Assembly: GCF_029607905.1 (NCBI RefSeq)
Contig: NZ_JAPHEH010000001.1
Span: 2,633,530 to 2,697,529 of the forward strand
DNA: 64,000 bases
From: Thiovibrio frasassiensis
GTDB lineage: Bacteria > Desulfobacterota > Desulfobulbia > Desulfobulbales > Desulfurivibrionaceae
Reading direction: 5' to 3'
Shown here piece after piece: positions 1-16,116 of this stretch; the stretch's first letter is position 1, and each line of letters starts with the position of its first letter. The position numbers and the translations under genes were made by a program. Under the pieces are notes generated by a model that was not told the DNA's origin, searched no databases, and saw only the letters and a list, made by a program, of their open reading frames with translations.

Positions 1-116
1 TCGGCCAGGGTGATTTTGAGCATCCTGGTCTCCAGCTCGTGGAACCCATCCGCCCGCTTGCCCTTGATGGCAAGATAGAGATTTATTTTTGCCGGAGCCT
101 CACAAACCAGTTCCAT
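1..116 (-). CDS. ispE: 4-diphosphocytidyl-2-C-methyl-D-erythritol kinase, N-terminal part
   Basis: The start codon is at 116 and the gene runs off the left edge. The first residues contain APAKINLYLAIKGKRADGFHEL, which matches the N-terminus of GHMP-family IspE kinases (typically APAKINLFL followed by R-x-DGYHEL). IspE phosphorylates CDP-methylerythritol in the MEP isoprenoid pathway in the cytoplasm. Only about 38 residues are visible, so the ATP-binding motif lies outside the window. It is transcribed in the same direction as the DUF1844 gene and serA, but a strong terminator (171-211) separates it from them. Confidence 0.85.
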   Translation of the reverse strand, partial: MELVCEAPAKINLYLAIKGKRADGFHELETRMLKITLA

Positions 117-170
117 TGCGCACCCATTCTCCCTCTTCAGCAAATGCTCCGCACCCTGCCCCGGGATCAT

Positions 171-211
171 AAAAAAAATCGCCTGATTTCAGTTTCTTAA
201 AATCAGGCGAT
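171..211 (-). terminator. Rho-independent terminator after the DUF1844 gene
   Basis: A perfect 12-bp inverted repeat (ATCGCCTGATTT at 178-189 and its complement at 200-211) has a 10-nt loop. On the minus strand it is followed by a run of seven to eight T. It begins 26 bp beyond the DUF1844 stop codon, so it should end the serA–DUF1844 transcript before ispE. Confidence 0.85.
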
Positions 212-236
212 CGTAACTATTGGCGTAGATCAAAAA

Positions 237-551
237 TCAGCTGCTGGCCTTCACATACCGCAGCTTCAAATCGGCAAGCACATGACCGAGGAGCTCTTCC
301 TCCTTGTCGGTCAAGTTGCCCCTGGTCCGGTCCTTCAGCAACTGCAAGGTGCTGATGGTGTGCTTGGCCAGGGCAAGATCGTTGCCGGCCTGCCCGGTTT
401 CCGGATCCTGGATCTCTCCCATATGATAGAGCGCCGAGCTGTTCAACGACATGACCAGGGTGGTAAAGGTTACCTCCGGCAGCACGCAGTTGCACCCTTG
501 CCGAACATACCCCTCGGGGCACTTTTTTTCGTTTTTCTCATTTTCGGTCAT
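237..551 (-). CDS. DUF1844 domain protein
   Basis: This 104-residue protein carries the DUF1844 pattern: a short central hydrophobic stretch (TLVMSLNSSALYHMG), then I-x-DPETG, then LAKHTISTLQLLKDRTRGNLT and an EEELL helix. The function of DUF1844 is unknown. It is a small, probably helical protein often found near serA or ispE in Desulfobacterota. The ATG at 551 is preferred over the upstream TTG at 563 because a GGGA lies about six bases before it. The N-terminus is charged (ENEKNEKK) and a Cys-x(6)-Cys-x-Cys segment follows. It lies 38 bp after serA and ends at a terminator. Confidence 0.8.
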   Translation of the reverse strand: MTENEKNEKKCPEGYVRQGCNCVLPEVTFTTLVMSLNSSALYHMGEIQDPETGQAGNDLALAKHTISTLQLLKDRTRGNLTDKEEELLGHVLADLKLRYVKASS

Positions 552-589
552 GGGCTGTCCCAATGGGCAGAAGGAGAAAACAAAAAACG

Positions 590-2197
590 CTAGGCGCTCA
601 CCAACTCGGGCAACTCAAGAACCATCGCTTCGTTGATGTTCGGCAGAGCACGGACCTTCTCCAGCAGAGGCTTGGGCACCAAGCCGTCGGTATTGAGCAG
701 GATCACGTTGAGATTCAAATTCCCTTCCCGCTGCTTGCCCACGGTCATCCGGGCGATGTTCACCCCGTCGTTGCCGAGGGTGGTGCCGAGCAGGCCGATC
801 ACCCCGGGGACATCGTTGTTCTGGACAAAGAGCATGGGGCCGGCGGGCAACGCTTCCATGCGGAAGCCGTTGAGGCGCACCAAGCGGGGCTCATTCTTGC
901 CGAACACCGTACCGGCGAGGACATTTTCGCCCTCGGTGGTTTTCACCCGAATGTTCACCAGATTGAGAAAATCATCGCTCTTGCTGGTTTTTGCTTCAAC
1001 CACCCGGATGCCCCGTTCCTGGGCAATGATGGGAGCGTTCACGTAATTGACCGCATCTTTCAAAATCGGGGTAAACAATCCCTTCAGAAAGGCAACGGTA
1101 ATCGGGCTGGTGATCATCTCGGAAAGATCGCCGCAGTATTCGATGGTGACCTCTTCCACCCCGCCCTTGGCGATCTGCATGTGGAAAGAGCCCAGCATCT
1201 CGGCCAAAGAGATATAGGGACCGACCTGGGAAAGAACCTCGGCACTTACGGAAGGCACGTTCACCGCATTGGTGATGGTGCCACGCAACAGATACGCAGC
1301 CATCTGTTCGGCGATGGCCACGGCGACATTCTCCTGGGCCTCCGCCGTGGAAGCGCCCAGATGCGGGGTGCAGACGAAATTATCCAGGCTCAACAGCTTG
1401 CAGTTTTCCCTGGTGGTGGGTTCCACCTCGAAAACATCCAGCCCGGCTCCGCGAATCTCTCCATCCTTCAGAGCATGGTACAACGCCTCCTCATCCACCA
1501 CGCCGCCACGGGCACAATCGAGGAAGACGCACTCTTTCTTCATCATCTTGAATTGCTCGGTGGAAAGCAGGTGCTTGGTTTCCTTGGTGAGCGGCACATG
1601 GACAGAGATAAAATCGGCCCGCTTGCACAACTCTTCCAGGCTCACCAGCTCGACGCCGATCTTCTCCACCAACTCCTTGGGCATGTGGGGATCGAAAGCG
1701 ATAACCTTCATCTTCAGCCCCTGGGCTCGGTCGGCAAAGATGCTGCCGATCCGGCCGATGCCGACGATACCCACGGTCTTGCCGGTTACCTCGCGGCCAC
1801 CGAACTTCTTTTTCTCCCACTTGCCTTCCTTCATGGAGGCGGTGGCCTGGGGGATGTTTCTGGTCAGCGACATCATCATGGCGATGGCGTGCTCCGCCGC
1901 GGTGGTGGCGTTGCCGTCCGGGGCATTCATGACGATGATCCCCTTCTTGCTTGCCGCGGGGATATTGACATTATCAAGGCCGATACCGGCCCGGCCGACA
2001 ACCTTCAGGTTGGTCGCCGCATCGATGATCTCCTCGGTAACCTTGGAGGCGCTGCGGATAACCAGGCCGTCGTACTCGGGGATTACGGCTTTAAGCTCTT
2101 CCGGGGAAAGGCCTGTTTTCACATCAACCTCAAGCCCGGCATCCTCGAGAATCTGAACACCAATGGGCGACAGGTTGTCACTGATCAGAACTTTCAT
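590..2197 (-). CDS. serA: D-3-phosphoglycerate dehydrogenase
   Basis: This 535-residue enzyme oxidises 3-phosphoglycerate to 3-phosphohydroxypyruvate with NAD, the first step of serine synthesis in the cytoplasm. Visible are the Rossmann motif GIGRIG near residues 146-151, the catalytic Arg near 230 (DCARGG), Glu near 259, and the His near 279 (TPHLGAST). An intervening ASB-like domain follows, then a C-terminal ACT domain (about 460-535, beginning near NNDVPGVIGLLG), the usual site of serine feedback. The length is typical of the long bacterial form. It is followed by the DUF1844 gene in one probable transcript. Confidence 0.97.
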   Translation of the reverse strand: MKVLISDNLSPIGVQILEDAGLEVDVKTGLSPEELKAVIPEYDGLVIRSASKVTEEIIDAATNLKVVGRAGIGLDNVNIPAASKKGIIVMNAPDGNATTAAEHAIAMMMSLTRNIPQATASMKEGKWEKKKFGGREVTGKTVGIVGIGRIGSIFADRAQGLKMKVIAFDPHMPKELVEKIGVELVSLEELCKRADFISVHVPLTKETKHLLSTEQFKMMKKECVFLDCARGGVVDEEALYHALKDGEIRGAGLDVFEVEPTTRENCKLLSLDNFVCTPHLGASTAEAQENVAVAIAEQMAAYLLRGTITNAVNVPSVSAEVLSQVGPYISLAEMLGSFHMQIAKGGVEEVTIEYCGDLSEMITSPITVAFLKGLFTPILKDAVNYVNAPIIAQERGIRVVEAKTSKSDDFLNLVNIRVKTTEGENVLAGTVFGKNEPRLVRLNGFRMEALPAGPMLFVQNNDVPGVIGLLGTTLGNDGVNIARMTVGKQREGNLNLNVILLNTDGLVPKPLLEKVRALPNINEAMVLELPELVSA

Positions 2198-2394
2198 TGT
2201 TTCTCCTTTATATATGAAAAGCGGCCAAAGCCATTTTCAGACCTTGGCAAATAGAGAGGGCGTGGATAATAGAGACCAAAAAAAAGTGAAATACCCGAGA
2301 TTCCGGGGGCAATCTAAAAACACGAATATTATGTGATCAGGGGAGTTTGTCAAGAATAAAACATCCGCAACAGCCCTGTCTTCCCGTCCGGAAC

Positions 2395-2862
2395 TCAGTC
2401 CTTAAAACATGCGGAAAAATCCGCCGGCCCTTCATCGGCCTCCCCGTCACACTCCGCAGCCTCCAGGCTCCGGTAATGCCGGGCCGTGGCGCACGCTTCC
2501 CGGAACTCCCCATATTTGCGGGCAAAAAGCCTTTCCGGGAATTCCGCTTTGTTCAGATAGGCCACCATGTTGGTCATGATTTCCGTGACCATGCTCTCCA
2601 CCAACGCGACCCGTTCGCTCTCGGCGACAAAGGTCCGCTCCTTGGTAGCCGAAAACGTTACCGATCCCCCCATGACCTGACGCACCTCTGCCTGCAGAGC
2701 GAGATCCGCTTCGGGTATTCGGGCAAAAAATTCCTCATCCACCGGCAGCTCCGCCTCGCAGATAATCTTGATCAGCCACCGGTCACCGACCATTTTTTTT
2801 GACTGGTCATAGACGGTAACGGTCATAGTATTGTCAAGTTTGCGTTGCTCGAGTATCTCCAT
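2395..2862 (-). CDS. Conserved-looking hypothetical protein, 155 aa
   Basis: I do not recognise this family. The ATG at 2862 has a clear AAGGAG eight bases upstream and is preferred over the upstream in-frame ATG at 2928. The protein is soluble and acidic: a beta-rich N-terminus (MTVTVYDQSKKMVGDRWLIKIICEA) is followed by a helical second half and an acidic tail ending in SACFKD. There is no signal peptide or membrane segment. It lies upstream of serA in the same direction but is separated by about 200 bp, so it is probably its own unit. It faces cysS across a 270-bp divergent region. Confidence 0.65.
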   Translation of the reverse strand: MEILEQRKLDNTMTVTVYDQSKKMVGDRWLIKIICEAELPVDEEFFARIPEADLALQAEVRQVMGGSVTFSATKERTFVAESERVALVESMVTEIMTNMVAYLNKAEFPERLFARKYGEFREACATARHYRSLEAAECDGEADEGPADFSACFKD

Positions 2863-2938
2863 GGGCAAAACTCCTTGGTCGCTGAAACACTTGGGACAAA
2901 AGCCCTGTTTTGATATTTGCATATGCACACAACAAGAC

Positions 2939-2967
2939 TTGCTCTCTTTCCTGGAAACGGGTATATA
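2939..2967 (+). promoter_or_regulatory. Possible promoter for cysS
   Basis: A TTGCTC box and a TATATA box are separated by 17 bp in the divergent region ahead of cysS, about 165 bp before its start. Only the TTG half of the -35 box matches consensus, so this is a weak sequence-only proposal. No T-box antiterminator-like structure was evident in the leader. Confidence 0.3.
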
Positions 2968-3132
2968 ACATATCTTTTTACAAAGGGGATAACTCCTTTA
3001 TCATAAAGACAGACGCGACATCGGCAAACGCCCTGGAGAGGGCAGAGGCAGGCGGATTTCAGCCAAGCAACATCGCCCCCTTTCCTCTCCTCAGCGTTCC
3101 CAGCCTCACATATCAACTCGATGGAACAGACC

Positions 3133-4602
<1,470 letters not shown>

Positions 4603-4627
4603 GCTCCTTTTTTCCTCAGCCTCGCCT

Positions 4628-4674
4628 CTGCGCATCGAGCAATCTCTTTGCTGTTGCGATTGCTCGATGCGCAG
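4628..4674. repeat. Perfect 17-bp inverted repeat after cysS
   Basis: CTGCGCATCGAGCAATC at 4628-4644 is repeated exactly in inverted orientation at 4658-4674, with a 13-nt loop. It lies 26 bp after the cysS stop. No strong T-run follows on either strand, so it is not a standard intrinsic terminator. It may instead protect or separate transcripts between cysS and the MEMO-like gene, or be a protein-binding palindrome. Confidence 0.75.
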
Positions 4675-4765
4675 ATATCTCTTTGATTCTCCTCCCCCTT
4701 CTGCGCTATAATTAGACAAACACGTTTTCCCGTCTGTTTCCCACAGTTGCGCCTGGAGGTCTGCC

Positions 4766-5569
4766 ATGAAACGAGAGCCTGCGGTTGCCTATCAGTTTTA
4801 TCCCGGAGACCCCGCCACCCTGAAAGAGACCCTTGACCGCCTCATCCCTGCCGCCACCGCCAAGCAAAAGGCCCTGGCCGTGGTTTCGCCCCATGCCGGC
4901 TATATCTATTCCGGCTCCGTGGCCGGGGAGACCTTCGCCGCCGTGGAGATTCCCCGCGACATCCTGGTCATGGGCCCCAACCATCACGGCTACGGCGCCT
5001 CCGTTGCCCTGATGGAGAAAGGCGCCTGGGACATGCCCTTGGGGGAGGTGGCGATCAACACCGTGCTGGCCCGCCACCTCCTGGCCCAGACGGAGATTAT
5101 CGAAACTGACACCCTGGCCCACCGGTTCGAACATTCCCTGGAGGTCCAGGTGCCGTTTTTGCAGTATTTCCGGCCGGACCTGACCCTGACCCCCCTGGTG
5201 ATTTCCCATCTTTCCTTCAAGTCCTGCCAGATTGTCGGCGAGGCGATCGCCGCAGCGATCGAACAATACGGCAAGCCGGTCCTCATCGTGGCCAGTTCGG
5301 ATATGACCCACTACGAATCCCGTGAGTCCGCCACCACCAAGGATGCCCTGGCCCTCAAGCAGCTCATGGCCATGGACCCTCAGGCACTGTATAATACGGT
5401 CTTGGGCAAAAAGATCAGCATGTGCGGGATCATGCCCGCCACCATCGCCCTCATCGCCGCCCTCCGCTTGGGAGCAAGCCAGGCCCGGCTCATCCGCTAC
5501 ACCGACTCCGGCGAGGCCAGCGGCGACATCAATCAGGTGGTCGGCTATGCCGGGGTGGTGATTTCCTGA
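4766..5569 (+). CDS. MEMO/AmmeMemoRadiSam system protein B family
   Basis: This 267-residue protein has the conserved histidines of the MEMO fold: VSPHAGYIYSG near residue 41, PNHHG near 74, HSLEVQVPF near 122 and SSDMTHYE near 178. The fold resembles nonhaem-iron extradiol dioxygenases. Family members often sit with AMMECR1 and a radical SAM gene, but neither partner is adjacent here, so this copy is solitary in the window. A GGAGG lies seven bases before the ATG. The biochemical role is unsettled; metal binding is likely from the conserved His residues. Confidence 0.9.
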   Translation: MKREPAVAYQFYPGDPATLKETLDRLIPAATAKQKALAVVSPHAGYIYSGSVAGETFAAVEIPRDILVMGPNHHGYGASVALMEKGAWDMPLGEVAINTVLARHLLAQTEIIETDTLAHRFEHSLEVQVPFLQYFRPDLTLTPLVISHLSFKSCQIVGEAIAAAIEQYGKPVLIVASSDMTHYESRESATTKDALALKQLMAMDPQALYNTVLGKKISMCGIMPATIALIAALRLGASQARLIRYTDSGEASGDINQVVGYAGVVIS

Positions 5570-5652
5570 AAAACCTAGGGAAAGACCACAATTCTCCTTG
5601 ACATAATCCCCCTGTTCCTCTATTTTTGGACGGTTCTTTGCCCGACACAATT

Positions 5653-5726
5653 TGGGGGATCGTCTAACGGTAGGACTGCAGACTCTGACTCTGCCTATTG
5701 GGGTTCGAATCCCTATCCCCCAGCCA
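5653..5726 (+). tRNA. tRNA-Gln (anticodon CUG)
   Basis: A full cloverleaf can be drawn. The acceptor arms are TGGGGGA and TCCCCCA with discriminator G. The anticodon stem is GCAGA/TCTGC around the loop CTCTGAC, giving anticodon CTG. The T arm is TGGGG-TTCGAAT-CCCTA, and a CCA end is encoded. It reads CAG codons. Confidence 0.95.
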
Positions 5727-6020
5727 CACAACTCTTCTTTTGTATTCCAGCACCCCCAGCCCGCAGGAGCGAACAAGAGTATCCGCACCCCCCTAGGGGA
5801 ATCTGCCCAGCCTTGCACCACAATCCTTTTTTGGCCAAACACCTCCCCACTCCGGACAAGACGCCAAACCCGCGCGCTTGCACAACATTGCCGAAAGACT
5901 TTAGAGCTGCCGGTAATTCGGCAACCGTTCTCTGTTGGGGGGCAGAAGAGGAAAGTGTAGGCGAGGCTTTCAGGCAGGCGAAATTGTGCTGATCCGATAA
6001 TTCCTTATTTCAAAAATAGC
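5727..6020. other. Intergenic region after tRNA-Gln
   Basis: I see no convincing gene here. Short open frames lack ribosome-binding sites and family resemblance. The stretch separates tRNA-Gln from the leftward radical SAM unit, whose terminator begins at 6021. Confidence 0.5.
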
Positions 6021-6068
6021 AAAAAATGCGCCATTTCCCATGGCCTGCTGAGCATGGAAAATGGCGCA
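6021..6068 (-). terminator. Rho-independent terminator of the radical SAM operon
   Basis: A 16-bp inverted repeat with one mismatch (6027-6042 and 6053-6068) has a 10-nt loop. On the minus strand it is followed by six T. It starts 17 bp beyond the stop codon of the radical SAM gene, so it should end that two-gene transcript. Confidence 0.85.
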
Positions 6069-6084
6069 CTCCAGCCGAACCTGT

Positions 6085-7131
6085 TTACCCCCTTATTTCT
6101 GCTGCTTCATCCTTGAAGCGTAACGCTTCCAGAAACCCTCTTTGCAGGGAAATCGCTTCGACTTTTTCATGGGCATGCTGCTTGATTGCCTTTCGGACAT
6201 CGTCCCTGGTGAAGATGTCGTTGCAGAGGTGACAGTGGTTGACATACTGATCTTGAAAATTGATCTCCGGCGCCTTTTCCCGAATGAAACGCATGATGCC
6301 GTAAGGGCCTTCCAGAGCAAGCCAATTGGCAATCAGGTCGGCGTTCCCTTCGCAAACGATCTCGGCCAGGGTCTGACTTTCAAGACTGCCAATGGTGAGT
6401 TCCGGAACCCGCTGGTCGATCATGCCGCAGCAAATCCGGACATCCTTGGCGGGGGAAACAATAATGGAGCTGAGAATGCTGCTGCAAGGAGAGCTGTATG
6501 CTGACGGACTTGTTGGGTAGATAATGTGATCGTCCAGGTTAAGCGTTTTGGCCCCGTGGCCAACTGGTATTGTCAGGGATGAACTATACAGATCGGTCTT
6601 CTGATTTACCCCACCCTCTTTGAATTCGCTCAGCTTTACACCGAAAAAATCAGAGATGGATTCGGGGGTGATCTGTCCGTTTTTTACCCGCTTGTGAGCG
6701 ATAAGAATCGGCAGCTCAAGTTCTCTGGCGGCCAGATAGGCATTGCGAACCCGCTCTAAGGGAATATGCTCCTGATGGAGATCATCGCAACTCAAGTTGA
6801 TTTCAGACAACCCAGCCTGCTTGAGATCGCCAAGTATCTGCAACGCAATATCCGGGGTGGCGGCCCAGAAGGAGTTGGTAACGATGCGAGTCCATAGCCG
6901 GTGTTGTTGCGCATAGCGAATTGTCTCCTTCACATCGCGCAGCTTGAGGAGAGGCTCCCCTCCCGTAAAGACAACGACGATGAGACTCCCCAATTCCAGG
7001 GCCTGATCAATTACCCTGCTCATAAAAGGGGCGTCGAGGGCGGGGCCATTCCATGGTCCCGACTCGGTCACACAGTATTTGCAGCTGATAGGACAATCGT
7101 AGGTAACGGAAAATACCACGCGTGAAATCAT
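6085..7131 (-). CDS. Radical SAM enzyme with SPASM-like C-terminal cysteines
   Basis: This 348-residue protein begins with a radical SAM core. The 4Fe-4S motif CPISCKYC (Cys-x3-Cys-x2-Cys) lies near residues 13-20, followed by a glycine-rich SAM motif (VVFTGGEPLL, near 52-61). Later cysteines (SPCSSIL, RICCGM and NHCHLCND) and a segment like the SPASM/twitch pattern (ELTIGSLESQTLAEIV) suggest auxiliary Fe-S clusters, as in peptide- and protein-modifying enzymes. It starts 9 bp after the 192-residue upstream gene; its GGAGG overlaps that gene's TAG stop, so the two are translationally coupled. Substrate unknown. The upstream partner is the obvious candidate substrate or chaperone, by inference only. 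Confidence 0.85.
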   Translation of the reverse strand: MISRVVFSVTYDCPISCKYCVTESGPWNGPALDAPFMSRVIDQALELGSLIVVVFTGGEPLLKLRDVKETIRYAQQHRLWTRIVTNSFWAATPDIALQILGDLKQAGLSEINLSCDDLHQEHIPLERVRNAYLAARELELPILIAHKRVKNGQITPESISDFFGVKLSEFKEGGVNQKTDLYSSSLTIPVGHGAKTLNLDDHIIYPTSPSAYSSPCSSILSSIIVSPAKDVRICCGMIDQRVPELTIGSLESQTLAEIVCEGNADLIANWLALEGPYGIMRFIREKAPEINFQDQYVNHCHLCNDIFTRDDVRKAIKQHAHEKVEAISLQRGFLEALRFKDEAAEIRG

Positions 7132-7140
7132 TTCCGCCTC

Positions 7141-7719
7141 CTAATATTTTCCCAACTCTTTGAGTTGGCTGTCCATTTTGGCGATCAGTGAGCCCAAAGT
7201 GACAGCGTCCAACAAGGGAACATGCGTAAAGCGGTCTTCCGGGCGCGCGATTCCTTTGCCGTCCCACTTGGTAGTACTCCAGTGATCGGTACGACTCTCG
7301 GTAATCGCGTCTTGGTTTTTAAACTCTGTGTTGGCTCCACGATGGCTTTCTGTTTGCTTTTCAGAATAGTAGACGTCAACCGAGGCTTCCGCCTTGGCCA
7401 TGACCCCGACCTTGATCGAGACATCTTTCAGCTGGGGGTTCACTACCACCACGCCGAATAACTCCTCAAATTTGGCCGAATTTATTTTTCCCTTGAGCAC
7501 GAAATCATGGGCACGGACTACCAGAAAGCGGAGCCGCATCAGCGCCTCTTCCGAAACGCAGGCATCCAATTCAATTCCGTTGCTTTTGAGAGCCCCGGCC
7601 GAGTTTTCCATAAACAGCGCAAAGGTCTCCTCGTCAAAGACCGCCTTGCGAAGGAACTTGCTGAATGCGTATGAGGGAAGGACAATTTTGTGCGTGATCC
7701 GACGGTTGCTGGCTACCAT
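7141..7719 (-). CDS. Unrecognised 192-aa partner of the radical SAM enzyme
   Basis: I do not recognise this family. The first 100 residues or so look like a compact helical domain (PSYAFSKFLRKAVFDEETFALFM, then ELDACVSEEALMRLRFLVVR). A beta-like segment follows (VSIKVGVMAKAEASVDVYY), then a polar, low-complexity tail rich in T, S, D, E and H (about residues 118-160, including TDHWSTTKWDGKG), and a helical C-terminus. It has one Cys and no signal peptide or membrane segment. A GGAGGTAGC precedes the ATG. Coupling to the radical SAM gene suggests it is a modification substrate, a recognition protein, or a subunit. Confidence 0.75.
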   Translation of the reverse strand: MVASNRRITHKIVLPSYAFSKFLRKAVFDEETFALFMENSAGALKSNGIELDACVSEEALMRLRFLVVRAHDFVLKGKINSAKFEELFGVVVVNPQLKDVSIKVGVMAKAEASVDVYYSEKQTESHRGANTEFKNQDAITESRTDHWSTTKWDGKGIARPEDRFTHVPLLDAVTLGSLIAKMDSQLKELGKY

Positions 7720-8309
7720 GTGCTACCTCCTTGATTTAGATCGTTTTTATTGAGCCCTTCATCAGGCAGATGTGCCTGAAAACAATTCGCCGCTTTTCTT
7801 CGCAAAGTATTTTTTTGCATACCCGACCATTCATGGTCACTGTCGTCACCGGAAAAACAGAACCTTTGACAACCTCCGGGATCGCCACCGGGGCCCCCTG
7901 TGCCGCTCCTTTTTGCGCACCAATTTTTTTTTGGATCCGGCTCCATACTTCGAACGACCGCCATGCCGAGTTATCCTCTGGCGCTAGGGAATCTTCACCC
8001 AAGGCCAGGAACAGGCATCGACCAACCCATATCACCCTAGCACACCCAATGATCATATTCTCTTGTATGCCAAGGAAAAATTCCTGACAAGTTTTTTTCG
8101 CAAGGCGAAAAAAAGGACAGATTTATTTGTCAACTTTTCTTGGTCGCCCTTGAACAGGCAGGAAAAATTGTTCCGAAGAAAAAAATCTGTCTCGTTGCTC
8201 TCTGTGTTTGGGAGGAAGAATCAGGACGTGAAAGGGGCCAAGCGCCCTTAAAGGAAGCGCCTTGGCCAGAGGATAAGCGAAAGGGATTTACGATTCGGCA
8301 GGCACGCTC
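7720..8309. other. Long AT-rich noncoding region upstream of the radical SAM pair
   Basis: No gene is supported. The stretch holds several homopolymer runs and many short inverted repeats: a perfect 10-bp repeat TTTTTTTCGC/GCGAAAAAAA with a 3-nt loop (8092-8114), GACAGATTT/AAATCTGTC 58 bp apart (8116-8124 and 8183-8191), and two GGAA/TTCC hairpins nearby. The promoter of the leftward pair must lie in its left part. Two leftward open frames here (7713-7964, 7736-8056) lack a good ribosome-binding site and known motifs. Confidence 0.5.
8236..8267 (-). terminator. Possible terminator after the 8310-8807 gene
   Basis: GGCCAAG-CGC pairs with GCG-(C)-CTTGGCC across an 11-nt loop, giving 10 bp with one bulge. 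It lies about 40 bp past the stop of the leftward membrane-protein gene. The T-run after it on the minus strand is weak (CCCCTTTC), so termination activity is uncertain. Confidence 0.4.
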
Positions 8310-8807
8310 TTAGCTGCGCACCAAGGCGTCGGGCAGGATGACCCTGTGGAGCAGCCAGACCTTTTCCTGTTTGATCAGAGAAAAAGCCAGCCGATGGGTT
8401 TCCGCGAAAAAGTCCGGCCGGTTCCGGTTACCGGTCACCTGCACCAGAGCGCTGACCTCAGCCCGCCCCTTGCTCGGGATCTCAACCAGAATCTCGGCAA
8501 AGGTGACCTGCAGGTCCGCCCGGCGGGAACGGTACATGATGAGGTAGCGGATGGCCAGCCCGGAATCCAGGACCTCGCGGTACTCGCGCTCCGGGACTAC
8601 CACCTCGCAGGCCGGGGCGAGAAAATCCTTCACTTCCTTCATCTTGAGGGCCAGCACCACCGGACTCTCCGCCCCCTTCTTAGCAAGGGCTGCGGCAACA
8701 CCGTGACATCTCCGGATGATCACCTGTTGGTCGCTGAAGTAATAGAGGAGAAAGCCCCCACCCCCGAGCAGCAACACGACAACGGCGATGAACAAATTTC
8801 TCTTCAC
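8310..8807 (-). CDS. Single-pass membrane-anchored hypothetical protein
   Basis: From the GTG at 8807, which follows a GGGAGG-rich tract, this is a 165-residue protein. It has a short basic N-terminus, a hydrophobic segment (IAVVVLLLGGGGFLLYYF, about residues 6-23) and an exported domain. The domain looks alpha+beta (EILVEIPSKGRAEVSALVQVTG, then HRLAFSLIKQEKVWLLHRV), reminiscent of NTF2-like or similar small folds, though I cannot assign it. An in-frame ATG at 8861 would add 18 basic residues. The stop lies 17 bp before the end of the zinc-ribbon gene upstream, so the two are probably co-transcribed. Confidence 0.7.
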   Translation of the reverse strand: MKRNLFIAVVVLLLGGGGFLLYYFSDQQVIIRRCHGVAAALAKKGAESPVVLALKMKEVKDFLAPACEVVVPEREYREVLDSGLAIRYLIMYRSRRADLQVTFAEILVEIPSKGRAEVSALVQVTGNRNRPDFFAETHRLAFSLIKQEKVWLLHRVILPDALVRS

Positions 8808-8824
8808 CCTCCCCTCCCTCACCC

Positions 8825-9097
8825 TTACAACTGCGGATCGATATTCCCGGGGCCGCCGCATTGGGGCGCATAGCAGGTAACATTTTTAAAATCACACACC
8901 TCGCCGCAACCCGGACATTTTTCCGGCGGTTTTGCGGCCTGGGTCGTCCGCCCGCACCCCCCGCATTTCCAGAAGGGATCGGCCGCCTCCTTCACATAGA
9001 CGCCATGGGGCGAATAGCCGCAATGGGCACAGGTGGTCTGGATATCCTCGTAATTCTTGCCGCAATCTTCGCACTTGCCCTGTTTGCCTTGGCTCAT
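8825..9097 (-). CDS. Small zinc-ribbon protein, 90 aa
   Basis: This 90-residue protein has several paired cysteines: CEDC near residue 9, CAHC near 23, CGGCG near 45, CPGCG near 61, and a C-terminal CYAPQC. That is enough for two rubredoxin-like zinc or iron knuckles plus a tail pair. It is soluble, with no signal peptide. The ATG at 9097 has AGGAGC upstream and begins MSQGKQGKCEDC. Similar small multi-Cys ribbons are common in sulfate reducers. The role is unknown; metal binding is inferred from the cysteine spacing. Confidence 0.75.
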   Translation of the reverse strand: MSQGKQGKCEDCGKNYEDIQTTCAHCGYSPHGVYVKEAADPFWKCGGCGRTTQAAKPPEKCPGCGEVCDFKNVTCYAPQCGGPGNIDPQL

Positions 9098-9273
9098 GAT
9101 GCTGCTCCTTATGTTTTTGGGGCCGGCAAAACCGTTCCAGTGAAGCCCTGGTTTCTTTTCAGTATGCCTCCGTCCGGAGGGAACCTCCAAACTTTTTTTT
9201 AAGATGCGGCCAAACATCGCTGCAGCAAGCATCTCCCCCTGCTGCTGCTTCCGGCGGGCATTCCCCCCCGGCC

Positions 9274-9786
9274 TCAACGCCTCCTTTTGCTCCGCTTGGC
9301 TTTCCTGGGACCGGCTTTAAACTCCGGCTCATACCGCACGCTGAACTGGCTTTCGCTGGTATTGCGGAGACTGAGAAAATGCGCATTGCTGGGCTCAAAG
9401 GGGCAGATCGGCATCACGCAGGGGCTGAAACCGAACCTCTGGTAAAAATGGGGCTCGCCGAGGACAAAGATGGTCGCATCCTTGATCCCCTCCTGGCGCA
9501 GGGCAAAGCGCAGCAGCTCCGAGCCGACCCCCTGGCCCTGAAACTCCGGCTTCACGGCCAAGGGCGCCAAGTGCAGGCCGCAAACCGCGGCGCCGTTATA
9601 CGCCTTACTGAAGGCGATATAGCCGATGACCGCATTGACATGGATGCAGATCCACTCATGCATCTCCTTGCCATTTGCATGGAGATTCTCCACCAGCTGC
9701 ACCTCCTCGCTGCTGTCAGGGAAGGCTTGGCGCAACAAGGCGGAAACCTTGGGATAATTTTCCGGGGTGAGTTTACGTATCTTCAC
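9274..9786 (-). CDS. GNAT-family N-acetyltransferase (YhbS-like)
   Basis: This 170-residue protein has the GNAT acetyl-CoA motif: LHLAPLAVKPEFQGQGVGSELLRFAL (about residues 72-97), with the pyrophosphate loop Q-G-x-G-x-G/S. It then has the YhbS-like FVLGEPHFYQRFGFSP segment (near 107-122). The acceptor substrate is unknown. The start is a GTG with GAGGT upstream. The C-terminus ends in an unusual basic run (RKAKRSKRRR) that could bind nucleic acid or be a composition quirk. It lies just downstream of the TIM homologue in the same direction. Confidence 0.88.
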   Translation of the reverse strand: MKIRKLTPENYPKVSALLRQAFPDSSEEVQLVENLHANGKEMHEWICIHVNAVIGYIAFSKAYNGAAVCGLHLAPLAVKPEFQGQGVGSELLRFALRQEGIKDATIFVLGEPHFYQRFGFSPCVMPICPFEPSNAHFLSLRNTSESQFSVRYEPEFKAGPRKAKRSKRRR

Positions 9787-9841
9787 AGTACCTCTGCTTG
9801 CAGTATTTTATTTTATAAAATTCAATGGTTACGTGATTTAT

Positions 9842-10549
9842 TCAACCAGGATTGCTTGCGCCGCCGGAGAGCGTGCGACCGATGGCACCGAATTCCTCCG
9901 CATCCAGGCTGGCCGTGCCGACCATCAAGCCGCTGCTCCCGGCCAGGGCACTATACTCGCTGGCGTTTTTCGCATTGATTGAGCCGCCGAAAAGAATCGG
10001 GGTGTCCGGCGCCATGCCCCGGATTGCAGCGATGGCCGCACCTGCCTTGGCAAAGGATTGCGGCACCTCGATACCGATGGCCTCCACCGGACCATAACCG
10101 ATGAGCAGCCCGGGCAAATCCTCTTCCTCGATGGCCGCCAGCTGGGCCCGGGCATAGGGCTGGTCCAGGCAGAGGATGGGGGTGATCCCGGCGGCAACCG
10201 CTTCACGCACCTTGTTGCCAATCTCCTGGTGGGTTTCATGGAAGTAGCGGCGCCGTTCCGAATGTCCGATAATGGCATACTCGGCAAAATCCCTGACCAT
10301 CTCGGCCGCCACCGCGCCGGTGTAGGCGCCCGGCGGAAAGGGGGAAAGATCCTGCACCGCCAGGGCCAGGTTGCTAAGGTTCATTTTTTGCAGTTTCCGC
10401 CACAATGGGATAAGAAAGGGAACCGGCGGGGCAAGGATCACCTGCAGGTGCGGGTCAAGACGATGGCTGCGGGCAAATGTTTCCAGCCACGCTTCCGCCT
10501 CACCCAGGGTTTTGTGTGCTTTCCAGTTGGCCAGCAGGTATCTGCGCAT
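9842..10549 (-). CDS. Triosephosphate isomerase homologue lacking the catalytic glutamate
   Basis: The 235-residue protein is clearly TIM-barrel triosephosphate isomerase-like. It has NWK (N8, K10), IIGHSERR with the catalytic His near 96, and the C-terminal phosphate loop FGGSINAKN and LMVGTASLD. The position of the catalytic base, normally the E of Y/V-E-P, reads Y-G-P (residues 152-154, codon GGT), so the expected Glu is absent; the nearby E156 is out of register. The protein is also shorter than the usual 250 or so residues. It may be inactive, repurposed, or use another residue. The N-terminus MRRYLLANWK fixes the start at 10549. Confidence 0.85.
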   Translation of the reverse strand: MRRYLLANWKAHKTLGEAEAWLETFARSHRLDPHLQVILAPPVPFLIPLWRKLQKMNLSNLALAVQDLSPFPPGAYTGAVAAEMVRDFAEYAIIGHSERRRYFHETHQEIGNKVREAVAAGITPILCLDQPYARAQLAAIEEEDLPGLLIGYGPVEAIGIEVPQSFAKAGAAIAAIRGMAPDTPILFGGSINAKNASEYSALAGSSGLMVGTASLDAEEFGAIGRTLSGGASNPG

Positions 10550-10739
10550 GGATGGACCTCGTTTCTGAGCGCGCTGCGCTTTACATCCTCTGGAGGAGCC
10601 GGTCACTCTTTCTTGCGTCGGCGGATAATTCAGTTTAGGGTGGGCCGCCGGATGGACACCGTGTACAATGGGGTTGCCGCAACCAGCCCCCTGTCTCCCT
10701 TGTAACAGACCAAGCAAACGAGCGCGAGAAGATCGTAGA

Positions 10740-12821
10740 ATGAAAGTGATTATTGCCGAGAAGCCCTCCGTGGCCCGCGACATTGCCGAGGTCCTCGATA
10801 TCAAGGCCAAGAAAAAGGGGTACATCGAGGGGCGGGGCTGCGCGATCACCTGGGCTTTCGGCCATCTCGTCACCTTACAAGAGCCGGGCGACTATGATCC
10901 GGCCCTCAAGCACTGGTCGCTCGATACCCTCCCCTTCGTGCCGGAGCAGTTCAAGCTCACCCTAATCAAGAACCGCGGGGTGGACGAGCAGTTCCGGGTG
11001 ATCGAAACCCTGTGCAAGCAGGCCGAAGAGATTGTCTGCGCCACGGATGCCGGGCGGGAAGGCGAGTTGATCTTCCGCTACATCCTGGCCCTGTGCAACT
11101 GCGAGGATAAGCCCATCCGCCGCCTCTGGCTCAACTCGCTGACCCCCGATGCCATTCAGGAAGCGTTCAAGGATCTCAAGGACGGCCACGATTACGACCC
11201 GCTCTATGCCGCGGCCCGCTGCCGCAGCGAATCAGACTGGATCGTCGGCCTCAACGCCACCCGCTACTATACCGTGCGCCACGGCCGGATCGGCGGGGGC
11301 AGCGACCGGGTGCTCTGGAGCATCGGCAGGGTACAGACCCCGGTCCTGGCCATGATCGTGGAGCGCGACGACACCATCCTCCAGTTCCGGCCCCAGCTCT
11401 TCTGGGAGCTGACCAGCAAGTACCGGGAGGTGGTGTTCAAGTACACGGGCAAGCGGTTTGAAACACCGGAAAAAGCGCAACTGCTGCTGGAGAAAATCAC
11501 CGACCACCCCTTTGCCGTCACCGGGATTGCGGCGAAAGAGAAAAAAGAACAGCCGCCCCAACTCTTCGACCTCACCACCCTGCAGCGGGAGATCAACAAG
11601 CTTCACGGGATCTCGGCCGCCGACACCCTGGCCGCCACCCAGAACCTCTACGAGAAAAAGTTCGTCACCTATCCGCGTACCGATTCCCGCTACCTGAGCA
11701 AGGACCTGCAGCCGCGGATCCCCAAGATCATGGAGCAGCTTAAGCCCAGCCACCCCGAGGCGATCGCGCCCCTCAACCTGGCGAAGCTCCCTTTCAGCAA
11801 GCGGATCATCGACGACACCAAGGTGAGCGATCACCACGCCATCATCCCCACCGGGGTCAAACCGCATGGCCTGGGGGCCAACGAACAGCTGGTCTACGAG
11901 GCCATCGCCACCCAGTTCATCGCCGCCTTCTACCCGGTCTGCGTCAAAAATCTCACCACGGTGGAGGGGATCAGCAACGGGGTGAAGTTTGAGGCCAAGG
12001 GGACCCAGATCGTTGCGCCCGGCTGGACCGTGCTCTTTGCCAACAAGAAACACTCCCAGGAGGCGGCGGAAGAACAGTCCTTGCCCCTTTTCAGCGAGGG
12101 GGAAACCGGGCCGCACGAGCCCGCCCTGCGCGAAGGCAAGACTATTCCCCCGAAGCATTTCAGCGAGAACTCCCTGCTCGGGGCCATGGAGGCGGCGGGC
12201 AAGTTCGTCGAGGACGACACCCTGCGCGAGGCCCTTAAAGAACGGGGGATCGGCACTCCGGCCACCCGGGCGGCCATCATCGAAACCCTGCTCAGCCGCA
12301 ACTATATCCGGCGCGACAAAAAACATCTGCGCTGCACCGACATGGGCCGCTGCCTCATCGCCCTGATTCGGGACCCGCTCCTCAAATCACCGGAGATGAC
12401 CGGAGAGTGGGAGGAAAAACTCAAGAAAATCGAGCGCAGCCAGCTGGACCCCGACGAATTCATGACCACCATCTCCGGCTACATCCGCACCCTGATTACG
12501 AGCAGCTCCGCCGCCCGGCTGGACACCAGCCGCTGGGGCAGCTGCCCGCTCTGCGGCAAGGAGGTGGTCAAGGGGAACAAAGCTTACGGCTGCTCGGGCT
12601 GGAAGGAGGGGTGCGGTTTTGTCCTCGACCCGGAATGCAAGGGAGTACCCCTGACCCCTAAGCAGATCCAGCTCCTGCTCCAGCAGCGCATCCTGGAGCA
12701 GCCGGTGCGGATCGAGGAAGAAGCGCGGATGCTGATCCTCTCCACCCAGGGCATGGTCATGGATCTCAAATTGCCTTCGGCCGAGCGGCAGAAGAAGGTG
12801 GAAAAAAATGATCGTCCTTGA
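10740..12821 (+). CDS. topB: DNA topoisomerase III (type IA)
   Basis: This 693-residue enzyme relaxes and decatenates DNA by single-strand passage. The TOPRIM domain is at the N-terminus (MKVIIAEKPSVARDIAEVL, then ATDAGREGELIFRYI). The active-site Tyr is near residue 311 in FVTYPRTDSRYLS, and the GIGTPATRA signature follows near 505. A C-terminal zinc-ribbon-like segment is visible (CPLCGKEVVKGNKAYGCSGW, about residues 603-622). The start at 10740 gives the family-typical N-terminus; the ribosome-binding site is weak. It is divergent from the TIM homologue. Confidence 0.95.
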   Translation: MKVIIAEKPSVARDIAEVLDIKAKKKGYIEGRGCAITWAFGHLVTLQEPGDYDPALKHWSLDTLPFVPEQFKLTLIKNRGVDEQFRVIETLCKQAEEIVCATDAGREGELIFRYILALCNCEDKPIRRLWLNSLTPDAIQEAFKDLKDGHDYDPLYAAARCRSESDWIVGLNATRYYTVRHGRIGGGSDRVLWSIGRVQTPVLAMIVERDDTILQFRPQLFWELTSKYREVVFKYTGKRFETPEKAQLLLEKITDHPFAVTGIAAKEKKEQPPQLFDLTTLQREINKLHGISAADTLAATQNLYEKKFVTYPRTDSRYLSKDLQPRIPKIMEQLKPSHPEAIAPLNLAKLPFSKRIIDDTKVSDHHAIIPTGVKPHGLGANEQLVYEAIATQFIAAFYPVCVKNLTTVEGISNGVKFEAKGTQIVAPGWTVLFANKKHSQEAAEEQSLPLFSEGETGPHEPALREGKTIPPKHFSENSLLGAMEAAGKFVEDDTLREALKERGIGTPATRAAIIETLLSRNYIRRDKKHLRCTDMGRCLIALIRDPLLKSPEMTGEWEEKLKKIERSQLDPDEFMTTISGYIRTLITSSSAARLDTSRWGSCPLCGKEVVKGNKAYGCSGWKEGCGFVLDPECKGVPLTPKQIQLLLQQRILEQPVRIEEEARMLILSTQGMVMDLKLPSAERQKKVEKNDRP

Positions 12822-12888
12822 CCGCAAGTACGAACGAGGTACACTCTGATCCGACCGCTCCCCGTTTTTCCCCAAAGGACCCCGCCCC

Positions 12889-13152
12889 ATGGCTGAAATA
12901 CTCCCGGACGATATCAAGGCAGACCTGGCAGAGGCCGCCATCCTCCACCAGCGCGCCTCTTCCGATTACGAAAAATGCGTGCAATTCAACAAGCTGATGT
13001 CCGAGCTGTTGGGCAGACTGGAAGACGCCCACTGCTATAAAACGGCGGACAAGGTGATGACCATCCTCCTCGACTGCAACCCCAAGCAGGGGTCCCAATG
13101 CGAAAAAGCCTCCCGGATCGGCGATAAGATGAAAAAATTTGAAAGGGGCTAG
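12889..13152 (+). CDS. Small helical hypothetical protein, 87 aa
   Basis: The product is a soluble, mainly helical 87-residue protein with two cysteines in DCNPKQGSQCEKA and one each in YEKC and AHCYK. I do not recognise the family. AAGGA lies about ten bases before the ATG. It follows topB by 67 bp and precedes the DUF3786 gene by 44 bp, all rightward, so it may be co-transcribed with one or both. Confidence 0.6.
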   Translation: MAEILPDDIKADLAEAAILHQRASSDYEKCVQFNKLMSELLGRLEDAHCYKTADKVMTILLDCNPKQGSQCEKASRIGDKMKKFERG

Positions 13153-13196
13153 GGAATTCCCTCGTTCTTTCTCCCTTTCTTCAGTACCCTGCCCTC

Positions 13197-13997
13197 ATGT
13201 CCAAAGCCGCCTACACCCCCCTTGAGGTCTATAAGATCCTGCCGCAATCCAATTGCGGCAAATGCCGGCTTCCCTCCTGCCTCGCCTTTGCCGCGGCAAT
13301 CGTGGCGGGGAGCAAGCAGCTCCAGGAATGCCCGGACCTGGACCCGACTACTGCGGCGGGATTTTCCGCCCGGTATCGGCAGCCAGGACTCAAGGAGGAG
13401 AATCAGGCGGAGTTCCTCGACAGGCTGCAAGCCAAGATGGCCCTGGTCGATCTGGCTGCGGTTGCCCCCCTGATCGGGGCGACGGTCAAGGGCGAGAGCA
13501 TCGTCATCAACTCCCTGGGCAAGGATTTCGTCCTGGACCGCCGGGGCAGGATGACCTCGGAATGCCATATCATCCCCTGGGTCCTGGCCCCGCTGCTCTC
13601 CTGCATCACCCACCAGAGCCATGCGGAGATCAGCGGCAGCTGGATCTCCTTTCGGGAGATTCCCGGGGGCATCGAATGGCAGGGGCTCTTCAGCAGCCGC
13701 TGCGAGGAACCGCTCAGGAGACTGGCGGACGCCAACCCGGAGCTGCTCACCGACCTGATCGGGCTCTTCATGGGGAAATCCATTGCCTGGTACGAGGCGG
13801 ATATCGCCCTGATCCTCCATCCCCTGCCGAAAGTCCCCCTGCTCATCTGCTACCAAGGGCCGGAGGGCGACCTGCACTCCAAGCTCACCATCTTGTTTGA
13901 TGCCTCCTGCAGCACCAATCTCCATATCAAATCCATCTACACCCTCTGCTCGGGACTGGTGCAGATGTTTGCCAAGATTAGCGAACATCACCGCTGA
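13197..13997 (+). CDS. DUF3786 protein with N-terminal 4Fe-4S motif
   Basis: This 266-residue protein starts with a motif (TPLEVYKILPQSNCGKCRLPSC, residues 7-28, then a Cys near 44) like the 4Fe-4S-binding FeS domain of corrinoid/CODH-linked proteins: Cys-x2-Cys-x4-Cys and a more distant Cys. The remainder matches the DUF3786 pattern, including SECHIIPWVLAPLLSCITH and the C-terminal HIKSIYTLCSGLVQMFAKI. Such proteins are typical of anaerobes. The reaction is unknown; an electron-transfer or corrinoid-related role is inferred from the motif alone. No strong ribosome-binding site is seen before the ATG. Confidence 0.8.
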   Translation: MSKAAYTPLEVYKILPQSNCGKCRLPSCLAFAAAIVAGSKQLQECPDLDPTTAAGFSARYRQPGLKEENQAEFLDRLQAKMALVDLAAVAPLIGATVKGESIVINSLGKDFVLDRRGRMTSECHIIPWVLAPLLSCITHQSHAEISGSWISFREIPGGIEWQGLFSSRCEEPLRRLADANPELLTDLIGLFMGKSIAWYEADIALILHPLPKVPLLICYQGPEGDLHSKLTILFDASCSTNLHIKSIYTLCSGLVQMFAKISEHHR

Positions 13998-14016
13998 TCG
14001 CTGACTCCCCTCATCC

Positions 14017-14874
14017 TCACTTTTTCCTGAAGAGCCGGATCTCCACATCCACATCCAGCTGCAAGCGGTTCAGGGCCGCCACCTTACCCTTGGTCTCCCG
14101 ATCGATGTTCCAGTAATAGGGGGTCATGGCCAGCAGATCCATGATCTCCAGATTGTTTTCAAGGGCGAGCGGATAGGTGATCCGCGCCACGGTGGCCGGG
14201 GCAAAAAGCGGATCGGCCTTTTCGGTGATCGCAGGCGCACCATGCTCCCGGGTGACCGGATAGATGATCTCCCGCAGACCATTGAGGTGACGCGGGCCGG
14301 GGCTGACGAAGAGGAGACTGCCGCCCTGTTTGAGGATCCGGGCGAACTCCGGGATATTGGCCGGGGAAAAGACATTGAGCACGATATCGAGAGAACCATC
14401 CAGATAAGGGAGATCGTTGATGCTCGCCACGAACCAGCCCAGGCTCCGGTCCCGCTGAGTGGCTTGGCGAACGGCAAACTTGGAGACATCCACCCCGTGG
14501 TATTCCATCCCCGGCTGCGCACCGCGACCCCGGCTCAACGCCTCTTTGAGGCGGGCAAGATAAAAGCCTTCGCCGCAGCCGGCATCGAGCACGGAGCATT
14601 CGCTGCCAAGCGCCACTTGCGCAAGCACGGAAGCGACGGCCTCGTTGACCCCGTCGGAGATCGGGTTGTAATACCCCAGATCCAGGAACCGCCTCCGGCT
14701 CAGGACCATCTCCGGGTCGTCCCCCGGCTCCTTGGAATGTTTGTTCTGGGCAAGCACCAGGTTGACATACCCCTGGCGGGCAACATCGAAGCTGTGCAAT
14801 GCAGCGCATTGGTAGCCGGAGGGGGTGGGCAGCAGCGGTTCCCGGCAAACCGGGCATTGGAGAAGAGAGGACAT
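14017..14874 (-). CDS. rlmA: RlmA-like 23S rRNA guanine-N1 methyltransferase
   Basis: This 285-residue protein has the N-terminal zinc knuckle and signature of the RlmA/RrmA family: LQCPVCREPLL, then YQCAALHSFDVARQGYVNLVLAQ, then GDDPEMVLSRRRFLDLGYY. A class I SAM-binding motif VLDAGCGEGFYLARL follows near residue 97. Family members methylate 23S rRNA helix 35 at G745 or G748; which position is modified here is inferred from homology. AAGGAT precedes the ATG. It converges on the DUF3786 gene. Confidence 0.85.
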   Translation of the reverse strand: MSSLLQCPVCREPLLPTPSGYQCAALHSFDVARQGYVNLVLAQNKHSKEPGDDPEMVLSRRRFLDLGYYNPISDGVNEAVASVLAQVALGSECSVLDAGCGEGFYLARLKEALSRGRGAQPGMEYHGVDVSKFAVRQATQRDRSLGWFVASINDLPYLDGSLDIVLNVFSPANIPEFARILKQGGSLLFVSPGPRHLNGLREIIYPVTREHGAPAITEKADPLFAPATVARITYPLALENNLEIMDLLAMTPYYWNIDRETKGKVAALNRLQLDVDVEIRLFRKK

Positions 14875-14968
14875 GTGCGCATCCTTTCAGTCATAAGCCC
14901 GAGCGCAGGTGCGCGAATGCGTCGGGGTTCAGAGGGATTACTGGGGGATCCTGGTTATAAGTGCAAAC

Positions 14969-15112
14969 CTAATTCCGTATCGCCGAGAACATAGGGCACA
15001 GCCCACAGAGGAGTTCCAACCCTTGGGGTATAGCGAAATCTCCCTCCGGGTGCCGATTCTCCGGGGTAATTCCCGCCAGAAGTTCTTCCAGTTCGTAATC
15101 TGCGTTGTTCAT
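14969..15112 (-). pseudogene. MazE-like antitoxin tail, truncated remnant
   Basis: The frame starting at 15112 overlaps the Fic stop (AATGA) and reads DYELEELLAGITPENRHPEG, then DFAIPQGLEL. This is the C-terminal toxin-binding segment of MazE-type antitoxins (typically LEELLAxxTPENxHxExxxGxPxGxExW). It then continues into an unrelated tail to a stop at 14969. The N-terminal DNA-binding half and the final Trp are missing. It may be a decayed antitoxin or a short peptide translated by coupling with Fic. Confidence 0.6.
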
Positions 15113-16116
15113 TGCTTCTTCAAAACATAATGACCGGTTTTTTTCCCGCCAATTTTTTCGACCAAACCCGCATCGAGCAACGGACGCAATAAGTCCATCG
15201 CCCCCTGTCGGGATACGGACAACGCCTGCCATATTTCGCTGGGGGCCATGCTTCCATGATCGCGGAGCAGATGGAGCAGCTGTTCCTGGCGCGGCCGCAG
15301 GACCAGTTTTTCCACGGATTTAATCTGGAAGGTTTGAATCCGCAGCCAGGCACGTTCCAGTGTTTGTTTGAGGCCCGTCGTGCAGTATTCCAGCCAACCT
15401 GTCAGGTCTTCTCCATCCTGCCGCACAGCAGCCAGCGCGGCATAGTACCTTGGTCGGTCTTCCCAGTAATATTCATCCACCGAAAAGATATGATGGGTGT
15501 CAAACCCTCGCCGGTAGAGTTCCCACAAAGCGAGCGCCCGGCCCGTGCGGCCGTTGCCGTCGGCAAAGGGATGGATGGCCTCGACGCGGTAATGGAGGAT
15601 GGCGGAACTGATCACCGGCGAGAGTTGTTGCGATGTTGTATTCCACCATTCCAGCAACTCAAACATCAACCCCGAGACAGCCTCCGGCGGAGGGGGGAGA
15701 TACTCCCCGACCCGCACCCCAATCGTCCGGTATTTCCCTGCCGTGCCCTGATCCATCACCTCTCCGGCCAGAATCCGGTGCAGCTCCAGAATGTCTGTAT
15801 GACGGATGGTTTTTATGGCCGCGTTTTTTTCCACATGCCGCAGTCCGGCGAAATAATTGAGAACCTCCCGCTCGTGTCTGGGGCCGACAGCGGAAAGCTC
15901 GCGCCCCTCATCGAGGACCCGGACTTGCTCAAGGGTCAGCGGGTTGCCCTCAATGGCCGTCGAGGCATGAACATTCCGGGTGCGGGTGTCTTTCTGTAAG
16001 GCGGGAATCCAGGCAAGGTCCACCACAGCGCTTTGGATCCGTTCGCGCAATGCCGCTACTTGTTCGACTTCGGCAAGTAGGTGCGGGGTTATGATAAATT
16101 TGGGGACGTAGACCAT
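15109..16116 (-). CDS. Fic-family protein with C-terminal winged-helix-like region
   Basis: This 335-residue protein has a complete FIC motif, HPFADGNGRTGRA (near residues 184-196), the hallmark of AMP- or other nucleotide-transferring enzymes. The N-terminal part contains TAIEGNPLTLEQ (near 58-69), resembling the inhibitory-helix region of class II Fic proteins (S/T-x-x-x-E-G/N). The C-terminal 70 residues (LVLRPRQEQLLHLLRDHGSM, then PSEIWQALSVSRQGAMDLLRPL) look like a winged-helix DNA-binding domain, suggesting autoregulation. MVYVPKF is the likely start. An operator-like triple repeat lies just upstream, and a MazE-like remnant overlaps its stop. Confidence 0.88.
   Translation of the reverse strand: MVYVPKFIITPHLLAEVEQVAALRERIQSAVVDLAWIPALQKDTRTRNVHASTAIEGNPLTLEQVRVLDEGRELSAVGPRHEREVLNYFAGLRHVEKNAAIKTIRHTDILELHRILAGEVMDQGTAGKYRTIGVRVGEYLPPPPEAVSGLMFELLEWWNTTSQQLSPVISSAILHYRVEAIHPFADGNGRTGRALALWELYRRGFDTHHIFSVDEYYWEDRPRYYAALAAVRQDGEDLTGWLEYCTTGLKQTLERAWLRIQTFQIKSVEKLVLRPRQEQLLHLLRDHGSMAPSEIWQALSVSRQGAMDLLRPLLDAGLVEKIGGKKTGHYVLKKQ

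Follow-up and report, generated by a model that had tools for sequence, protein, structure and literature searches.

In the 64,000-nucleotide stretch of Thiovibrio frasassiensis DNA analyzed here (the window), a gene for a partner protein and a gene for a radical SAM enzyme lie one behind the other on the minus strand (Table 1). The partner gene ends in a TAG stop codon (7143..7141) that shares bases with the AGGAGG in the ribosome-binding site of the enzyme gene, and the gap from stop to ATG is 9 bp, in agreement with the original prediction of two coupled reading frames.

Table 1 Features of the locus, in positions of the window.
Feature	Position	Strand	Description and basis
Partner gene	7141..7719	minus	192 aa, candidate RiPP-type precursor; ORF, no Pfam family
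Helical N-terminal domain of partner	7456..7674	minus	Residues 16-88, NHLP-leader-like; AlphaFold2 helices
Conserved polar core of partner	7264..7386	minus	Residues 112-152, predicted disordered, candidate target
C-terminal helix of partner	7147..7206	minus	Residues 172-191; AlphaFold2; aligned in 4/4 relatives
Partner stop codon running into enzyme Shine-Dalgarno	7131..7143	minus	Sequence
Enzyme gene	6085..7131	minus	348 aa radical SAM, YydG/EpeE-like clade
CX3CX2C motif (C13/C17/C20)	7072..7095	minus	Radical SAM cluster; alignments A2, A4
C234-C235	6427..6432	minus	Invariant in 16/16 rows; aligned to YydG
Intrinsic terminator	~6021..6069	minus	Fold, z -4.49
Promoter-like upstream stretch	8031..8114	minus	TTGTCA, 17 bp, TACAAG; inverted repeat AGGAATTTTTCCT
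tRNA-Gln(CTG), border of integration hotspot	5653..5726	plus	ARAGORN and site comparison in congeners

The pair also has a terminator of its own, as had been anticipated: the stretch 6015-6090 just downstream of the enzyme gene folds at -34.9 kcal/mol (z -4.49), none of 200 shuffles folded as well, and a T run follows the hairpin. This call rests on the fold and not on a pattern scan for terminators, because the scan picked up a single terminator-like site where shuffles would give 3.8. A long, structured upstream region had been claimed as well but did not hold up, as 7720-8040 folds no better than shuffles (z -0.61), 24 of 100 being equally stable. Farther upstream, ~85 bp at 8031-8114 are conserved among the three loci of the genus (82% identity to L002, and aligned in L003); this stretch, which is absent from the pattern-scan list, looks promoter-like when read by eye, with an overlapping inverted repeat. 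No exporter, protease, immunity, YydHIJ-like or SdpI gene was seen beside the pair when reading by eye the ORFs of at least 60 aa in window positions 1-16000 and of at least 70 aa in L004, a reading that a peptide of <60 aa would escape.

Distribution and mobility of the pair

A pattern scan of one genome per species (84,980 species), which misses distant relatives, returned three partner relatives besides the window, in L002, L003, and L004 (90, 85, and 57% identity, respectively). Three of the four loci belong to one genus, and L004 is a distant MAG, labeled Oxalobacter in its record, with a partner 57-61% and an enzyme 73% identical to those of the genus members. Both genes are present in the same order in 4/4 loci with the partner, at a spacing of 9-20 bp, so that the pair proposed as one system was found intact in every genome holding the partner, including the distant MAG. 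The partner is patchily distributed: within the genus, 3 of 17 genomes were positive (own genome included, some genomes being incomplete), and the same three were found among 58 relatives searched. Only the MAG itself was found in the family of L004 (1/195), and neither the plasmids searched with the partner nor viral contigs (98 pattern stretches) yielded a relative. Within Desulfobacterota, the partner profile at E 0.01 gave 4 of 297 genomes, namely our own and weak partial matches in G203, G075, and G273. The G203 match (L035) was rejected as a partner relative, since the 302-aa ORF around it looks unrelated, and the other two were left out.

The window and L002 copies adjoin tRNA-Gln(CTG), and the stretch behind this gene (window 5653-8309) is a variable cargo site across the genus. 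In the congener G004, ~170 bp separate the tRNA-Gln from the next gene, making it an empty site; G003 and G013 carry other small gene pairs there, HipA/HipB-like and RelE/Phd-like by eye; G010 has a 44-bp repeat of the 3′ part of the tRNA; and in G016 the pair is on another contig. The genes flanking the pair differ in L003 and L004. As the tRNA-Gln site is variably empty or otherwise filled in congeners, the pair looks like horizontally moved cargo in a tRNA-Gln hotspot.

A YydG/EpeE-like enzyme and its partner protein

The enzyme matches the Pfam family Radical_SAM (PF04055) at E 3e-12. Its best curated NCBIfam model is TIGR04078 (YydG), over residues 5-317 with 73.1 bits against a cut-off of 300, and the closest solved structures are YydG chains, at E 5e-10 when the sequence was used alone and at 2e-35 when a 16-row profile (A4) was used. 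The profile holds chosen rows, namely the four enzymes of the pair, nine plasmid enzymes, and those of G531, G472, and G867; neither the G942 enzyme nor the matches of the own-phylum search at 1e-30 were included. Judged by sequence, the closest described relative of the enzyme, which had gone unrecognized in the original prediction, is YydG/EpeE, a peptide epimerase of B. subtilis (PDB 8ai1-8ai6), though its score is well under the cut-off of that family's model. The two share near full-length similarity, the CX3CX2C motif, and auxiliary cysteines. With the PoyD model TIGR04517, a search of the own genome at E up to 1 gave nothing at the locus of the pair. An enzyme model from AlphaFold (mean pLDDT 51) was too poor for use.

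The core and auxiliary Cys motifs expected of the enzyme are present: C216, C234, C235, C300, and C303 are invariant in 16/16 rows, and the CX3CX2C cysteines nearly so, the row of L050 being without its N-terminus. As to the description as SPASM-like, the match to PF13186, the domain of SPASM-domain maturases, is sub-threshold (15.1 bits, under the Pfam cut-off of 21.5). In the alignment, C235 falls on the YydG cysteine replaced by alanine in the crystallized variants 8ai3-8ai5; from a 25-residue tag, we take this cysteine to be EpeE Cys223. In the excerpted text of PMC8326336, Cys223 is the H-atom donor of EpeE; the corresponding excerpt of PMC5808125 prints Cys 233 instead. The donor cysteine is thus kept in the window enzyme.

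For the partner, no Pfam family was found, and its sole NCBIfam match was NF038399 (Os1348-family NHLP; 14 bits, E 0.04, cut-off 40), a weak match seen in two of the four members. In the AlphaFold2 model (4 rows, mean pLDDT 52.8), five helices are predicted at model residues 15-87 and another at 171-190 (protein numbering is +1), while residues 89 to 166 are of low confidence and the core is disordered. The N-domain, whose block means of pLDDT are 54-84, is predicted helical apart from short bridges. The ordered N-terminal domain and polar tail first described from the sequence are hence retained as a predicted helical part and a disordered polar stretch, to which a C-terminal helix, unmentioned earlier, has to be added.

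A Foldseek search of the partner model against 350,542 chains gave four matches, none of them significant (E ≥6): the proteusin precursor 8tb1 at the top (E 6.0), then two yeast clamp loaders, and after them a nitrile hydratase. Upon realignment of 10 chains, 8tb1 reached Z 3.8, the SonA precursor complexes 3.5 and 2.9, and the nitrile hydratase 3.2, the best of these few values being at a level that may reflect only a common arrangement. We count the SonA complexes as RiPP precursors but claim no kinship of theirs to NHLP. With hhalign, the partner N-domain was aligned to 13 further partners and to a group of four; the lowest E was 0.03, where reversed controls reach 0.11 and several of the better alignments were out of register with the leader. 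This is not significant, and sequence homology among the leaders is therefore not claimed. Because RiPP precursors and a nitrile hydratase recur beside the NHLP sequence match, we nevertheless argue that the partner N-domain resembles nitrile-hydratase-like/NHLP (proteusin-type) leaders, each single match being weak. A proteusin leader combines a rigid and a disordered part, according to the excerpt of PMC10858898. In its model, the partner resembles a RiPP precursor, with a predicted helical domain, a variable linker, a disordered polar core, and a C-terminal helix. The protein had at first been recognized as nothing described, and no family with a defined unrelated role was matched. Since the pair also co-occurs in other genomes, the proposal of a system withstands both refutations first set for it.

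The polar core (GRAVY -1.40) contains no cysteine. Compared with the window, 40 of its 41 residues are identical in L002 and 38 in L003, with synonymous sites saturated, and in the three comparisons within the genus (window, L002, L003) the core has the highest identity among the four parts (38-40/41). Against L004, whose partner has a 16-residue insertion beside the linker, identities are 30/41 in the core, 58/89 in the leader, 23/39 in the tail, and 4/17 in the linker; at this distance, core and leader are conserved to a similar degree (73 vs 65%). Tyr117/118, Lys121, Asp137, His146, and Trp147 are invariant in 4/4 partner sequences. The only Cys of the window partner sits in the leader and is missing at that place in L003 and L004, and no cysteine is invariant among the four, which speaks against thioethers.

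Sister enzymes and their candidate precursors

A tblastn search with the enzyme in 72,556 plasmid records found 11 matches, eight covering at least 80%, which together with Eleftheria from a second search form a sister plasmid set of nine; two matches covering 47% of the query (Allochromatium) and a second place in the Enterococcus mundtii plasmid were left out. Judged by eye, a candidate precursor accompanies the enzyme in 9/9 of these loci, although in Rhizobium it lies ~3 kb upstream, behind a transposase-like ORF. Likewise by eye, it does so in G531, G472, G942, and G867. The loci of G531 and G328, the latter likewise holding a candidate precursor, also carry a RiPP radical SAM C-methyltransferase (511 and 634 bits, cut-off 281.85).

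A hydrophobic 40-residue stretch with a GRAVY of at least 1.2 is found in 9 of 14 sister partners (Streptomyces, Eleftheria, Halocatena, Lactococcus, Enterococcus, G531, G472, G942, and G867), hydropathy having been computed for all except Rhizobium. In four others (Thermus, Rhizobium, Klebsiella, and Collinsella), Asn alternates or short A/N repeats occur, the Klebsiella stretch also reaching GRAVY 1.21, and the G328 partner has neither type. The core of the window partner is water-loving, whereas membrane-seeking stretches occur beside many of the enzyme's relatives. NHLP models match 3 of 13 sister partners scanned with NCBIfam (G867 left out) at E ≤0.0012, none above cut-off, namely those of Streptomyces, G328, and Rhizobium. 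The SdpC match of the L041, L045, and L046 partners was not significant (E about 0.2).

YydG-clade enzymes are encoded on plasmids of Rhizobium (L040 257-6144), Thermus (L042 2599-6074), Klebsiella (L043 2868-6087), and Collinsella (L044 3231-6167), where the precursor cores have Asn at every second place or short A/N repeats and methyltransferases adjoin. Alternating-Asn runs reach 8 in Thermus (0/20000 shuffles) and 7 in Rhizobium. The methyltransferases of L040, L042, and L043 match HemK2/PrmC-type amide methyltransferase models, below cut-offs. These loci bring to mind a product of the polytheonamide type, which here a different clade of epimerases would make. L042 and L043 also contain SdpI genes above the Pfam cut-off, and literature joining SdpI, radical SAM, and epimerase amounted to a B. 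subtilis study and a mini-review. The part following the core in the candidate precursors L040 257-955 and L044 3231-3956 is the Pfam domain DUF5969 (82.7 and 32.8 bits, cut-off 25); this position suggests a role for the unnamed domain, of which no mention was found in the literature searched.

Genome searches with the enzyme profiles at 1e-20 gave 3/398 in the phylum of G382 and 3/198 in the family of G472, and at 1e-30 gave 10/297 in our own phylum, each count including the center genome. From the own-phylum matches (G097 and G170 left out), six regions were fetched and their non-overlapping ORFs of at least 60 aa read by eye: L064 has a candidate partner, no such partner was recognized in L063, L065, L066, and L067, and L068 has a TGA inside the enzyme match. 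L063 2711-5711 (G083) contains three consecutive YydG-like radical SAM genes, and a larger ORF beside them reads by eye like a B12-binding radical SAM protein.

For enzyme relatives in the order, found as matches to the first 145 residues, plus-strand ORFs were surveyed at 16 loci, some of them with the enzyme on the opposite strand; the readable ones are 303-aa cousins with no shared partner seen. Members of this conserved radical SAM family (~303 aa, C-terminal CELC motif) were noted at no fewer than ten loci of the order, where the surrounding genes vary and no partner is obvious (L015, L017, L019, L020, L021, L022, L025, L027, L029, and L036).

In a midpoint-rooted tree of 24 enzymes, where long branches may attract, the four polar-core enzymes group together (100/100) at the end of a long branch (1.79), inside a 15-row group (92/96, not starred) that also holds the hydrophobic and Asn-rich types. 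Outside it fall three rows of the 303-aa family, G328, G132, G070, and the three of G083. Among the rows outside are the enzymes of L063, L065, and L067, where no partner was recognized.

Proposed function and alternatives

PMC8326336 and PMC5808125 place the radical SAM epimerases of peptides in two settings, short secreted epipeptides and proteusins, and in the latter the enzyme acts at the alpha-carbon. YydG/EpeE has the short secreted peptide YydF/EpeX and a YydHIJ-like protease/exporter at its locus, whereas the window enzyme has a 192-aa protein as its neighbor and no such genes among the ORFs of at least 60 aa. Proteusins (PoyA/PoyD, OspA/OspD) have a long NHLP-type leader, to which that of the window bears a weak resemblance, and a C-terminal core, whereas here a helix follows the core; their PoyD-type epimerase differs too, the window enzyme having auxiliary cysteines and no TIGR04517 match. 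The pair also differs from the SDP system (SdpC/SdpI), as its core is hydrophilic and the SdpI genes of L042 and L043 have no counterpart seen nearby, and from sactipeptides and ranthipeptides, whose thioethers need conserved core cysteines, none being invariant in the four partner sequences. The window pair and its sisters thus seem to join the epipeptide and proteusin settings, with an EpeE-type enzyme next to a larger precursor protein. No such pair was found in print within the literature searched.

We consider it probable on balance that the locus is a two-gene peptide-modification system consisting of an epimerase and its protein substrate. The partner would be made as a precursor with a folded nitrile-hydratase-like leader, a variable linker, a flexible hydrophilic core of ~40 residues, and a C-terminal helix, and the radical SAM enzyme would be translated from the same message, presumably recruited by the leader. 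The enzyme would cleave S-adenosylmethionine at its CX3CX2C cluster and abstract alpha-hydrogens in the partner core, and C235 would quench the radical, so that selected residues would change from L to D, as with EpeE. The idea that the enzyme acts on its neighbor, with the polar tail as target, was already part of the original prediction; its pairing is seen in 4/4 genomes, and the modification, with epimerization as the reaction, is what we infer from kinship and one catalytic residue. Counted against this account are the weak leader assignment, the polar core, unlike those of the sister loci, the EpeE targets, which are Val and Ile in the excerpt of PMC8326336, the long branch of the window lineage, and the four of six own-phylum regions in which no such partner was recognized.

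Since no exporter, protease, or immunity gene was seen, the product probably stays in the cell or is handled by host proteins. With SdpI likewise missing from the ORFs read and the core hydrophilic, we do not think that it is a membrane-active bacteriocin, as some sisters may be. A bolder reading, in which D residues would be written into a hydrophilic segment of a folded, unexported, and uncleaved protein, giving a cytoplasmic stereochemical switch and not a toxin, is speculative, and we rate it as rather unlikely.

Of the alternatives, the strongest, still an improbable one, is that the enzyme modifies the core by another radical reaction, e.g., one that links conserved side chains through a C-C or C-O bond. 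The invariant Tyr117/118, Lys121, Asp137, His146, and Trp147 would offer such side chains, and other peptide radical SAM enzymes form such links according to the excerpt of PMC8326336, but the closest relative is an epimerase whose H-donor cysteine is kept; a thioether is unlikely given the position and loss of the sole partner cysteine.

We give a lower probability to defense or toxin-antitoxin-like cargo whose modified partner acts on phage or host cell, a reading of the role that is compatible with the epimerase-substrate account. It would fit the HipA/HipB-like and RelE/Phd-like pairs (by eye) in the same hotspot of two congeners and the presence in 3/17 genomes; however, the enzyme is like viperins at the superfamily level only (34.6 bits), and the partner had no match in PADLOC.

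Less probable still is a partner serving as adaptor or regulator of the enzyme and presenting some other molecule, as the ordered N- and C-terminal helices of the model and the lack of a transporter or protease among the neighbors read might suggest. The predicted helical N-domain is unlike an RRE, which has a winged-helix fold, conservation among the loci of the genus is highest in the flexible middle, and the sister enzymes are accompanied by precursor-like proteins. That the genes are chance neighbors without shared function is barely credible even with four genomes, three of them of one genus, as the stop codon overlaps the ribosome-binding site in the window, order and close spacing hold in 4/4 loci, and the pair stays together where the flanks differ.

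If epimerization is the true chemistry, this enzyme clade would serve very different cores, membrane-seeking, Asn-rich, and conserved polar ones, and the pair would provide a compact two-gene system to test how D residues in a hydrophilic segment alter protein function.
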